64,000 nucleotides of DNA from Owenia fusiformis (lineage: Eukaryota; Annelida; Polychaeta; Sabellida; Oweniidae): NCBI GenBank assembly GCA_903813345.2, contig CAIIXF020000008.1, positions 29,202,005 through 29,266,004 of the forward strand, written 5' to 3'. Each line of letters begins with the position of its first letter. Positions within the stretch are counted from its first letter, which is position 1. Positions 42,854 through 47,054 of this stretch are shown here, piece by piece. Made by a program: the position numbers and the translations under genes. Under the pieces are notes generated by a model. That model ran no database searches, was not told where the DNA came from, and saw only the letters and a list, made by a program, of their open reading frames with translations.

Positions 42854-43673
42854 TTGTTTTATTTTCAGTAATAAATTACTTGATAGCCTAGACCTGGCTA
42901 CATATGCCTCAGTCGCATTTGATCGCCGGTAATTGTATACATATTCATATACATGTTTACACATTGGAATACTCTTTTAACCCGAATATCAATATAAAAT
43001 ATGAATCTATATAACACAATCACGAATTTTAGTTTTTTTCTCGTCACATGATATTTCTGAATCTTAATTCGTTAATTGATAATGTTACAAATGTTCAAGG
43101 ATCCAGACTACTTGACAAATGCTTTAAAGGCCAGGGTCGGGTATAAAAGGCCAGTGGCAGTTAGGAATTACATCATATGATGATTTGATAATTTTGAAAA
43201 TCAGAGCTCCATAGGTTTTATTTTGTTTTTCCCTGATAACTTGAAAACTACTGAACAGTTTTTGCTACTTTTTGTCACAGTTCAGCATGAACATATGTTA
43301 ATTCAATATCTTGCTTCTTTTAATTCAAAATATCACTTCATTTTGTATAATTAAGCCTTTTTATTTGAAAATGTACTGGTTTTAAGGGAGGAGTTACTAG
43401 GCAGGGATTTAAATATCTGACCAATGAGGACTCTATAAATTTGTCATGTGATATTTACAAACACAAGCACATGGTGTTATTCTAAGAAAGCAAAGATAGC
43501 TCAGCTGTAGTTATTTGCACTAACCAGAAAAAGTATAAAGTACAAACTTACCTCCCCACTTGTATTTTCTTCACATTACATATCCCCATCATGTATACAG
43601 GTTAATTCAGGTATATAATTATAATTCCACTTATTCAAATGTTTGCTATAAATCCAATGTCATAGGGTCATAA

Positions 43674-45254
43674 TTATGTAAAGATCATATTTAGTACTTT
43701 ATCCCAGATTAATTGCTTGTAATTTGTTGTTGGGGGTTTTAAAATCTTTTTACGTAATGTCTTTCCAGGAGCAACATCTTTAGTCCAAATACTTGTAAAA
43801 TCCCTGTCTACGTTTTCGTTCCAGTGTAGTGTGGTAAGATCTGTCCTCAGTTCATACTGCACATTTCCAAAGGCAATTCTCTTATCATGAAACACATTCA
43901 AAACATTGTTGTAACTTTCAACGTAAAACGTGTCAAGTGCGTCTGTATAATTTTGTGCTTGTCTATACACTATTGTTTTCCTAATTGATTTCTTTAAAAG
44001 TTCCTCTGCAATTGGTGTCTGAATTTTCAGGTAATTGAGTTGATAATTATCCTCTTTGCAACTAGAGTTTATGTTACAATTTTGATGGTTATCTTTATAA
44101 TGTTCAACGATGTTATCAAGAATGTTTTTTAAAACTTCAGGGTCATTGTTGCAATTTCGCATTGCCCAATGGTACTGTTTTTTAATTGGTTCAACCTTGT
44201 CAGACAGTTCCATGTGCCATGAGATACCATGACTGTAACGAGGTCCTTTTGCGACTTTTTCGATTTCTTTCTTTGCCGATTTTCCCCCGTGCCAAGTGTC
44301 GTTTTGATTTTTGGTATTACCAAGACGTTCTCTTACAAGTTTATTGATTGTTTGATTAGCATCATGTGCATGTACTTTCACTTTCACATCACTTTCATCA
44401 AAATGTGTATATATTCTGTCTGTTCCGATCTTTTCATGCCTTTGTGAAATAGGGTCGTCTTGCTTTGTCACATGTTCTGCTCTCAAAACTTTGTGACTTT
44501 CGAGTCCTATACAAATGACATCACAATCATTGGCATTCTTCCTCCATCCGTGACGGGCATCAGTCATTATTCCTATACCATCATCAAGGGGCCTTGTTTT
44601 TTCCTTCTCTTCTTCAAGGGCAATTCTGCAAGATTCTAAAGCTTCAATTTTAATATGAGATGCGAATTCTTGTGTCATAGTTTGCAGTTTTTGTTTTCCT
44701 ATATGCCCAAATTGTGATGTTTTTGTGAGGCTGTCATATTGACTTGGAAGCATACCTGATGTTATGTAACCATGAAAAAATCTGCAATTTACTAAACTTT
44801 GACCATTCGGAAGAGAAGGTGAAGATTTCCATCTGATTGTATGTTTGGCATCACAATGCCACTCAACTGTAACTGCATGGCCGTATTGTTGATAGTCAGA
44901 CCAGTATAGCTGATTATTACACATGGCTCTATGTGCTGAAGCATGATCTACGAGTCTCTGCACTGCAGACTTGGTTGTAAAAAACATAGGCTCATGCACA
45001 TTTTCTCTATCTACTGATAAGTATTCTTGAATGGGCTCATTCTTGGATGCCTCATTAGACGATTCACCTGGAGTGTTGTTCATTAGCCAGAAATCAATTG
45101 CAGTCTCTATTGTTTCTGTGTTGTTTGCTATTACTTCTCTGCTAATTAACTGCTTCATTTTTCTTACTTTTTCCAGAACCCTTGTCTTAGCACCTTCATC
45201 ACCAGGCATTTCTAATTGAAACTTTGGTTTTCTATTGCGTTTTACACTTGTCAT
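43674..45254 (-). CDS. Kolobok-type DDE transposase (526 aa, intact)
   Basis: A single uninterrupted frame. Residues 1-60 are basic then helical and could bind DNA; no THAP zinc finger is present, unlike some Kolobok proteins. Residues 132-185 (WHCDAKHTIRWKSSP, VNCRFFHGYITSGM) match the conserved block before the catalytic core of such transposases. Candidate catalytic residues are D232 in MTDARHGW, D298 in HAHDAN or D319 in NDTWHGGK, and E446 in VESYNNVLNVFHDKRIAF. The NDxWHxxK and ESxNN...KRI patterns are what I associate with Kolobok and related TTAA/TIR transposases. It would cut and insert the element in the nucleus. The start ATG (45252-45254) is the only one giving the full frame. It is divergent from the neighbouring ORF, with 756 bp between starts. 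Confidence 0.75.
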   Translation of the reverse strand: MTSVKRNRKPKFQLEMPGDEGAKTRVLEKVRKMKQLISREVIANNTETIETAIDFWLMNNTPGESSNEASKNEPIQEYLSVDRENVHEPMFFTTKSAVQRLVDHASAHRAMCNNQLYWSDYQQYGHAVTVEWHCDAKHTIRWKSSPSLPNGQSLVNCRFFHGYITSGMLPSQYDSLTKTSQFGHIGKQKLQTMTQEFASHIKIEALESCRIALEEEKEKTRPLDDGIGIMTDARHGWRKNANDCDVICIGLESHKVLRAEHVTKQDDPISQRHEKIGTDRIYTHFDESDVKVKVHAHDANQTINKLVRERLGNTKNQNDTWHGGKSAKKEIEKVAKGPRYSHGISWHMELSDKVEPIKKQYHWAMRNCNNDPEVLKNILDNIVEHYKDNHQNCNINSSCKEDNYQLNYLKIQTPIAEELLKKSIRKTIVYRQAQNYTDALDTFYVESYNNVLNVFHDKRIAFGNVQYELRTDLTTLHWNENVDRDFTSIWTKDVAPGKTLRKKILKPPTTNYKQLIWDKVLNMIFT

Positions 45255-46010
45255 TTCTATTTCTAGTCAGACTTTGGTTCTATTCAATAAGGAGTATATT
45301 GATAATGAAACTGGCTACATTGAATCAAATAGTACTTGATTTCTCTTGATAGCCATGAGTTCTTGAGGGAGGGGGCATTTGATTACTATCTAGTTAGATT
45401 TATACCTAGGATACACAAGAGCTAAGTGAGAGATAATATCTAAATGGTTCTTCCCTCAATTATGTTTGGCCTATCTCTAGCAGACCAAAGGAAATCATGC
45501 TGCAACATTGGAGGGAGTTACAATTAAAATCTAATTTTCAGAAGTTCAATGTTCACATGACAGATAGTTATTGACAAGATCAAGTGAAATTCTAGATTCA
45601 AATTTTGAATCACTCTGTGGATCTCATCAGATCCAAGAATAATGTGTCCCTTGAGAAATGCCAGGGATGTCTATTTCAAAAATATCTAATCTGCAGTTGA
45701 AGGGATCATATCCATGTTTCAAAATCTTACTCTGTACACTATATTGGATCATAAAAAAATTATTTCATTTACTGATTTTGGTATTTCCCCCAATTGGACA
45801 GTGAAAAGTTCAATCCTCAAGGCATTATACTGAATTAGGGACCTGTCATTGTGTGTATTCTCATTCCATGTCTAACAAGGGTAAAATATCAATTAGTTCA
45901 GATACTGAGATAAAAGAAAATGACTGGTCCCACTTTTTCTGGAATTGTTTCTGGAGTTCTTGTACTTGTTTTAGTAACACTTACACACAGCTGGTTATTT
46001 CCAAAAAAAC
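45255..46010. promoter_or_regulatory. Divergent intergenic region of the transposon
   Basis: 756 bp between the start codons of the two outward-facing ORFs. It must hold both promoters if the element is autonomous. No specific box was identified. An open frame at 45853-46041 leads toward the second ORF but has no recognisable content. Confidence 0.4.
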
Positions 46011-46580
46011 ATGGCAACCTCAAAAAGAAAAAAGAAAATAGTATCCTTATGGGTTAATGATGACCAAGAAAGAAAGCTCAAAATGTATTTTGCATCCAAC
46101 AAATGGGAGTGGAAAAATCCTAAACCTGATGACATTCTGAATTCAATTACATACTCAGAAAACACAGATAACGTTAGTGCTAGAGCCCCTGACCCAGAAG
46201 ATCCACCAAGTGACAATGAACCTGATTTAGAAGGTGCATGTGTACATTGTCTGTGTAGGCCATGCATCACCCATGATGACAATCGTCAAATGTGGTGGCC
46301 AGAGAGCGACAGTCCTCCGACAGCGCATAACCACACATTTAGGAAGGAACTATTCAGATCCTTTTGGAGTATCCTATCTAATCGAGGCATATGGAACATT
46401 CCAATATATATTGCCCGAAAACAATTGGCTTTGCAGTCTCATCCAAGATATCAGGGATTAGTAGCAGTTAGTCCCCGTGGACATAAAAGAGAGCTGATGC
46501 CTAACTGTGTTATACGCGTTGTGAGGCAATGGTACCCTAATCCTGAAGGTGTAGACTACATGGGGCACATGTGGGAGTAA
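46011..46580 (+). CDS. Transposon second ORF: P2X7 'ballast'-like zinc domain protein (189 aa)
   Basis: Residues 1-75 are a basic start followed by an acidic, proline-rich linker. Residues 77-85 have C77, C80, C82 and C85 (CVHCLCRPC), then residues 109-180 form a domain ending LMPNCVIRVVRQWYPNPEG and DYMGHMW. The final block aligns in style with the C-terminal cytosolic 'ballast' domain of vertebrate P2X7 receptors, where a Cys-containing strand, a basic helix and an F/YPxxEG-Y turn close the zinc-bound fold. There is no P2X channel segment and no membrane span, so this is a free-standing domain. Such domains occur as stand-alone proteins in many invertebrates. What it does for the element is unknown; a DNA- or protein-binding helper to the transposase is a guess. 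No intron is needed. Confidence 0.65.
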   Translation: MATSKRKKKIVSLWVNDDQERKLKMYFASNKWEWKNPKPDDILNSITYSENTDNVSARAPDPEDPPSDNEPDLEGACVHCLCRPCITHDDNRQMWWPESDSPPTAHNHTFRKELFRSFWSILSNRGIWNIPIYIARKQLALQSHPRYQGLVAVSPRGHKRELMPNCVIRVVRQWYPNPEGVDYMGHMWE

Positions 46581-47054
46581 TAAATATATGAACCTTAACA
46601 ATGAACAATATTTGGAATCAATACATTTAATTTCCACCAGGCTACATATAGTAATAAATATTGGAATGAATAGGAACATAAATAAAACGTAACTCTTTGA
46701 AACATTATGAAACAACTGCATTTGAACATTGGAATCAATTATCATTATGCTTGTTAACAGTAAGAAATGACTTTATTTTTTTAACACATGTTGACCTTTG
46801 AACTTGCTTTGTATGGCAAATGTATATAAACAGAAAAATGCTTTTTCGTGTACTTGAGATATTATTTACTATATAGAATCAAATCATTTGCAATGATTAA
46901 CTCTAGATACATGTGCTTGTGTTTATAAACATTCTGGCAAATTTACCATATGCAGTGTATGGTAACATGATCTTTCACTTGATTGGCTAGTCATTTATGG
47001 GTATTAATGAGGTGGGCTGAACTCAACCATATGGCATGGAAACCTGGCCTTTAA

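Follow-up and report, generated by a model that had tools for sequence, protein, structure and literature searches.

In the window (the whole stretch of Owenia fusiformis DNA that was analysed, 64,000 nucleotides), we identified a Kolobok-type DNA transposon of 3,923 bp at 43128–47050 that holds two genes in head-to-head orientation. The first, a single open frame on the minus strand (43674–45254), encodes a DDE transposase of 526 amino acids. The second, on the plus strand (46011–46580), encodes a KolX-like protein of 189 amino acids, P0001, which we recognise from its open reading frame, its matching stretches and a family alignment. By their coordinates, the two genes are separated by a spacer of 756 bp (45255–46010), the putative site of both promoters. 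An earlier sequence-only reading had singled out the 189-residue frame, whose limits coincide exactly with 46011–46580, as a P2X7 "ballast"-like domain carried as transposon cargo.

The small gene and its family

P0001 contains a cysteine cluster, C77-VH-C80-L-C82-RP-C85 (46239–46265, plus strand), in agreement with the CxxCxCxxC pattern noticed earlier, and a ballast-like C-terminal block with R160, P164, C166, R172, Y175-P176 and G185-H186 (46488–46577, plus strand). The C-terminal stretch first likened to P2X7, LMPNCVIRVVRQWYPNPEG, is likewise present, and that resemblance is backed by the profile controls described below. We searched the whole genome (498 Mb in 525 contigs), and all match lists from it are lower bounds. 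The P0001 family comprises at least 54 stretches in at least 49 clusters, the window's own included. A chance ORF was rejected because two more genome copies of the frame, 99% identical, are both open, because 43 of the 54 listed stretches are stop-free (11 have an internal stop), and because pN is lower than pS in 21 of 21 pairs from seven aligned lineages; synonymous sites are near saturation, and this last comparison is therefore a rough sign of constraint on the family.

Across ten aligned members (alignment A1), C77 is found in 9/10, C80 in 10/10, C85 in 9/10 and C82 in 3/10, and C80, R160, P164, C166 and R172 are among the residues invariant in all ten. The family thus has about four conserved cysteines (C77, C80, C85 and C166) against seven in the ballast domain. 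As a single sequence, P0001 matched no Pfam family at E up to 1, a phmmer search of the PDB returned one chance hexokinase match (E 2.8), and two tblastn scans of viral contigs gave no relative. An AlphaFold model built from the single sequence reached a pLDDT of 31.7, too low for a usable structure.

Resemblance of the C-terminus to the P2X7 ballast domain

To compare families rather than single sequences, we used A1, a subset of seven of its members (A3, with L028, L031 and L032 left out) and an alignment of thirteen loci from the same genome that match Pfam P2RX7_C, PF20478 (A2). The A2 profile matched P2X7 chains in the PDB at 3.3e-17. Aligned against A2 with hhalign, A3 gave an E of 2e-4, a score of 34.6 and a probability of 47% over 26 C-terminal columns, and all ten members of A1 gave an E of 0.0016, a score of 29.1 and a probability of 16%; these alignments span 26–29 columns, and all profile matches cover about 26–55 C-terminal residues. 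Column shuffles, run on the seven-member A3, scored at best 23.6 in 150 trials (0/150 reached 34.6), and the reversed profile scored 14.0. With an HMM of A2, 5/10 A1 members outranked every one of 5,000 shuffled decoys (E of the best member 1.6e-4; P0001 itself 0.025), and with an HMM of A3, 6/13 A2 members did so.

Both the column shuffles and the two-way enrichment over decoys argue against the view that the second gene encodes a small zinc protein of separate origin whose MPxC..VR.WYP motif resembles the ballast domain by convergence or chance. That view draws on the negative single-sequence searches of Pfam and the PDB, on the shortness of the matched region and on three of the seven zinc cysteines being missing. 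It also draws on two profile results: the A1 profile retrieved no P2X7 chain from the PDB, its matches being a designed repeat protein (1e-4, through the N-terminus) and SsrA-binding protein (1.4), and the human P2X7 fragment stayed among the decoys of the A3 HMM (E 26). Set against these are the identical, gap-free spacing P-x-C-x5-R-xx-(F/Y)-P and the fact that both kinds of gene accompany Kolobok transposases, and we regard an unrelated protein as unlikely. The spacing in P0001 equals that of P570, C572, R578, F/Y581 and P582 of P2X7 (numbering from the accessible text of PMC7016195), and the best HMM alignment extends to the residues preceding the block, where RKALALRQ of family member L014 is paired with RHIAYRQF of the ballast profile. 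Homology of the family's C-terminus to the ballast domain is likely, judging from these sequence comparisons.

The likeness does not extend to a full ballast domain. The P0001 family lacks the set of seven zinc cysteines in three motifs, and P0001 has no match to the curated PF20478; the Pfam P2RX7_C profile touches just 2/10 family members (best E 0.011). At E up to 10 the same profile finds 74 places in the genome, none in the P0001 family as judged by eye (76 candidates scored), and P0001-family and P2RX7_C loci overlap nowhere in the listed matches. As for the proposed profile check, the family profile A3 beats the shuffles (34.6 versus 23.6), and P0001 alone is unmatched in Pfam at E up to 1.

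P0001 shares with the P2X7 ballast the P-x-C-x5-R-xx-(F/Y)-P block and a similar layout of a cysteine-cluster protein. The ballast form of the block, (L/I/V)PSC...IR..(F/Y)P, appears in P0001 relaxed to MPNC...VR..YP, a correspondence drawn from the controlled profile comparison. Unlike P2X7, P0001 is unfused: its 189-aa frame holds no P2X channel. Its CxxC would correspond to the first ballast motif, C85 (in PCIT) to the GxCIT cysteine and C166 to C572; under this inferred correspondence it has no counterpart to the CC pair or to the leading cysteine of WCxC. As three ballast cysteines have no counterpart in the family, we predict one zinc site in the four-cysteine form. Among the P2X7 nucleotide-contact residues in the C-terminal block, P0001 keeps the R578 counterpart alone.

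Partnership of the transposase and the small gene

Most listed P0001-family loci (38/49) have a relative of the window transposase within 3 kb, with the two genes on opposite strands in 38/38 cases; a random place would show such linkage with a chance of about 0.0009. These loci are not independent, since 13/38 are of one type (L023). Seen from the other side, 30/33 transposase matches covering at least 390 residues have a P0001-family gene within 3 kb. The genes are head to head (divergent) at 21 of these 30 near-full-length transposases and tail to tail (convergent) at 9, which indicates that gene order goes with the transposase branch. A stop interrupts the match at 2/38 linked loci, and 7/11 unlinked loci have stops or a frame break.

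PMC9587614 regards Nanor and other ballast-domain proteins as domesticated KolX, which could suggest that the ballast-like gene here is a host gene, either travelling as passenger cargo or serving the host as a domesticated copy. The partnership holds across diverged lineages, both among the 38/49 loci and among the 30/33 transposases, and most unlinked loci are broken; we consider a host gene very unlikely and rejected passenger cargo on these two grounds. We read the gene not as incidental cargo but, most likely, as KolX, which Kol0-type Kolobok elements regularly carry as their second gene.

We also observed a third element branch (L025, L026, L031, L032) in which the KolX and transposase genes are arranged tail to tail. 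Judged from its frames, the KolX gene of this branch seems to be interrupted by an intron that directly follows the MPxCIT motif, and the downstream piece reads VRxSYPN...GHKWQ (L025, L032).

Borders, copies and transposase of the element

The element is present at three chromosomal sites (the window, C1 and C12), in copies that share about 99.5% identity. Similarity among them starts at the left TTAA target-site duplication (43124–43127) and stops at the right one (47051–47054), and each copy lies in different flanks. The terminal inverted repeats are perfect over 8 bp, AGGCCAGG...CCTGGCCT, with termini 5'-AG and CT-3' that follow the 5'-RR...YY-3' pattern of Kolobok.

Searched against Pfam at E up to 1, the transposase matches PF20700 alone (E 9.9e-12). 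In an alignment of eight transposases of the same genome, D232, D298, D319-x2-H322, H385/H390/C399 and E446 are invariant; with roles assigned by motif, they provide the DDE residues, a DxxH motif and a zinc finger between the second D and the E. Kojima & Bao 2022 (PMC9587614) name as Kolobok signatures TTAA duplications, 5'-RR...YY-3' ends, the DDE residues, C/DxxH and a zinc finger that precedes the last E. The invariant residues, TTAA and RR/YY ends fit these signatures, and we therefore assign the transposase to the Kolobok type. The RR/YY termini, stated in that paper as a difference from piggyBac, together with PF20700 as the sole match, DxxH and the zinc-finger residues led us to reject as extremely improbable a piggyBac element with a cysteine-poor KolX-like protein, even though piggyBac also duplicates TTAA and the same text reports KolX-like forms lacking most of the seven cysteines in a few piggyBac families.

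Several smaller observations concern the element and its relatives. The C12 copy (L020, G000:C12:15204600-15209800) carries about 0.63 kb of inserted DNA within its transposase gene, and its KolX frame is intact; the matches flanking the insert overlap by 5 bp, which suggests a target-site duplication. Within the window element, a 23-bp subterminal inverted repeat (43451–43473 and 46910–46932, 91% complementary) may be bound by the transposase. L021, which is more distantly related, has ends of the same kind, bounded by TTAA (AGGCAGG...CCTGCCT, located by motif in a single copy). The pair L023/L051 is 99.9% identical over 4,027 bp, with a TTAA-AGAC start and a GTCT-TTAA end in two different flanks.

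Other ballast genes and P2X loci of the genome

The Pfam P2RX7_C profile found at least 44 stretches in at least 37 clusters across the whole genome at E up to 0.001. With the window transposase as query, 2/37 of the listed clusters are linked within 3 kb. We then used L027, a different Kolobok transposase (PF20700 E 6.4e-9) that is 21% identical to the window's and has the same invariant residues: 11/37 listed clusters have an L027 match within 10 kb, where 0.08 would be expected by chance. Ten of the 11 are tail to tail with the transposase and one is on the same strand; three are copies of one element, leaving 9 independent cases at most. Among the remaining 26 clusters, one at C5:33.25 Mb has a same-strand fragment of a window-type transposase at 71 bp and one at C10:31.92 Mb has a PF20700 match 6.8 kb off, and the listed matches contain no transposase partner for the other 24.

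The complete seven-cysteine ballast gene L029 is present in four nearly identical copies, all with a GACATCT-TTAA end in four different flanks. The left end is TTAA-AGATGTAGTT in both copies where it was mapped. The unit at C1:42.40–42.41 Mb measures 9,731 bp, is flanked by TTAA and holds the ballast gene and a transposase exon, and we conclude that at least one full ballast gene rides a Kolobok-like element. Like the window gene, the seven-cysteine genes L029 and L034 lie near Kolobok transposases; they differ in being tail to tail with the transposase, in belonging to a larger unit and a different transposase branch, and in having the full cysteine set.

The expectation that ballast genes lie beside Kolobok transposases is borne out in part, in this one genome, by 38/49 P0001-family loci and 11/37 P2RX7_C clusters, and finds no support at the 24/37 without a partner. 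Its second part, that such genes sit within TTAA-flanked units, holds for L029, the one seven-cysteine unit with mapped ends.

The genome has six P2X receptor matches, all at C8:33.749–33.768 Mb, and the listed ballast matches on C8 are more than 2 Mb away. Separately, one P2RX7_C-type ballast exon has a YqaJ-type nuclease frame (L038:73–666, plus strand; PF09588 E 2.5e-10) about 1 kb away. Lambda-exonuclease-like nucleases have been reported in KolobokE (Kojima & Bao 2022, PMC9587614, available text). The genome list of YqaJ matches gave no general link to ballast genes; this list misses even the L038 copy.

Relation to published work

According to PMC9587614, KolX is the second protein of Kol0 Kolobok elements, is similar to P2X7 residues 476–595 and has the ballast fold; P2X7 is said there to have arisen by fusion of a P2X4-like gene with KolX. 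The window gene agrees with KolX in being a second protein beside a DDE transposase and in its ballast-similar C-terminus. It differs in having about four conserved cysteines against seven in the ballast region described in that text, although the supplementary alignments of the paper may list such forms, and in giving no significant P2RX7_C match as a single sequence. A steady second gene is present (30/33 transposases), and its putative identity with KolX is drawn from the C-terminal profile match. Zebrafish Nanor, for which the same text proposes an origin as domesticated KolX, is likewise a small stand-alone ballast-domain protein; unlike P0001 it is a vertebrate host gene, and we liken the two by description.

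We therefore interpret 43128–47050 as a young two-gene Kolobok transposon, most likely of Kol0 type, with 46011–46580 as the gene for its KolX-like accessory protein, and put the probability of this reading at roughly 80%. P0001 would most likely be the protein that such elements normally encode beside the transposase, here in a Kolobok that moved recently, and a reduced relative of the P2X7 tail domain. The proposal that the domain rides on a DNA transposon, which would offer a route for its spread and capture, is upheld in its first half by the TTAA-flanked Kolobok element; the capture route had already been described in PMC9587614, where the transposon origin of the P2X7 ballast domain was published in 2022.

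As far as our searches show, two findings are new in the literature covered: a four-cysteine form in intact Kolobok elements, which may already be contained in the supplements of PMC9587614, and the co-occurrence of two kinds of ballast-bearing element, with ends mapped for both. In PMC9319628, the mentions of Kolobok and of P2X7 are unconnected. Ballast genes throughout animals, and their "ancestral synteny" with two linked markers, are described by Rump et al. 2020 (PMC7016195); the accessible main text contains no word starting with "transpos".

More tentatively, and at less than even odds, we suggest that several Kolobok branches use ballast proteins as a normal part of their machinery, and that a four-cysteine (probably one-zinc) form and a seven-cysteine (two-zinc) form have both moved recently within one genome. 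If so, the two-marker synteny of Rump et al. would reflect gene order inside a transposon rather than in the host, and donors of the kind that supplied the P2X7 domain would be mobile to this day. With ends mapped in a single genome, reduced and full ballast-type proteins both travel in recently moved Kolobok elements, and these two travelling forms support the published transposon origin of the P2X7 tail.

Possible role of the KolX-like protein

The element inserts at TTAA, its two genes keep a steady partnership and the small protein is under constraint. In the mechanism we propose, KolX would be a small protein, stabilised by zinc, that acts together with the transposase, possibly in assembly of the transposition complex or in binding DNA or nucleotides, and would be kept because elements lacking it move poorly. 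The conserved counterpart of R578, a nucleotide contact in rat P2X7, may hint, as a guess, at binding of nucleotides or of DNA phosphates. The part that KolX plays in transposition could be studied on these elements, and with it the original purpose of the captured domain.

Tandem arrays

A different arrangement was seen on contig C513 (L054, G000:C513:1-9900), where units of about 3.35 and 3.82 kb follow one another in tandem. Each unit encodes a 691-aa transposase and, on the opposite strand, a 125-aa protein that appears His-Me finger nuclease-like from a motif recognised by eye. Similar arrays on contigs C313, C418 and C443 are suggested by the spacing of PF20700 matches, the sequence-level reading being that of C513 alone. 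The L054 array resembles the KolobokP multimers described in the available text of PMC9587614, and the 0.47-kb difference between its units would fit one extra terminal direct repeat.
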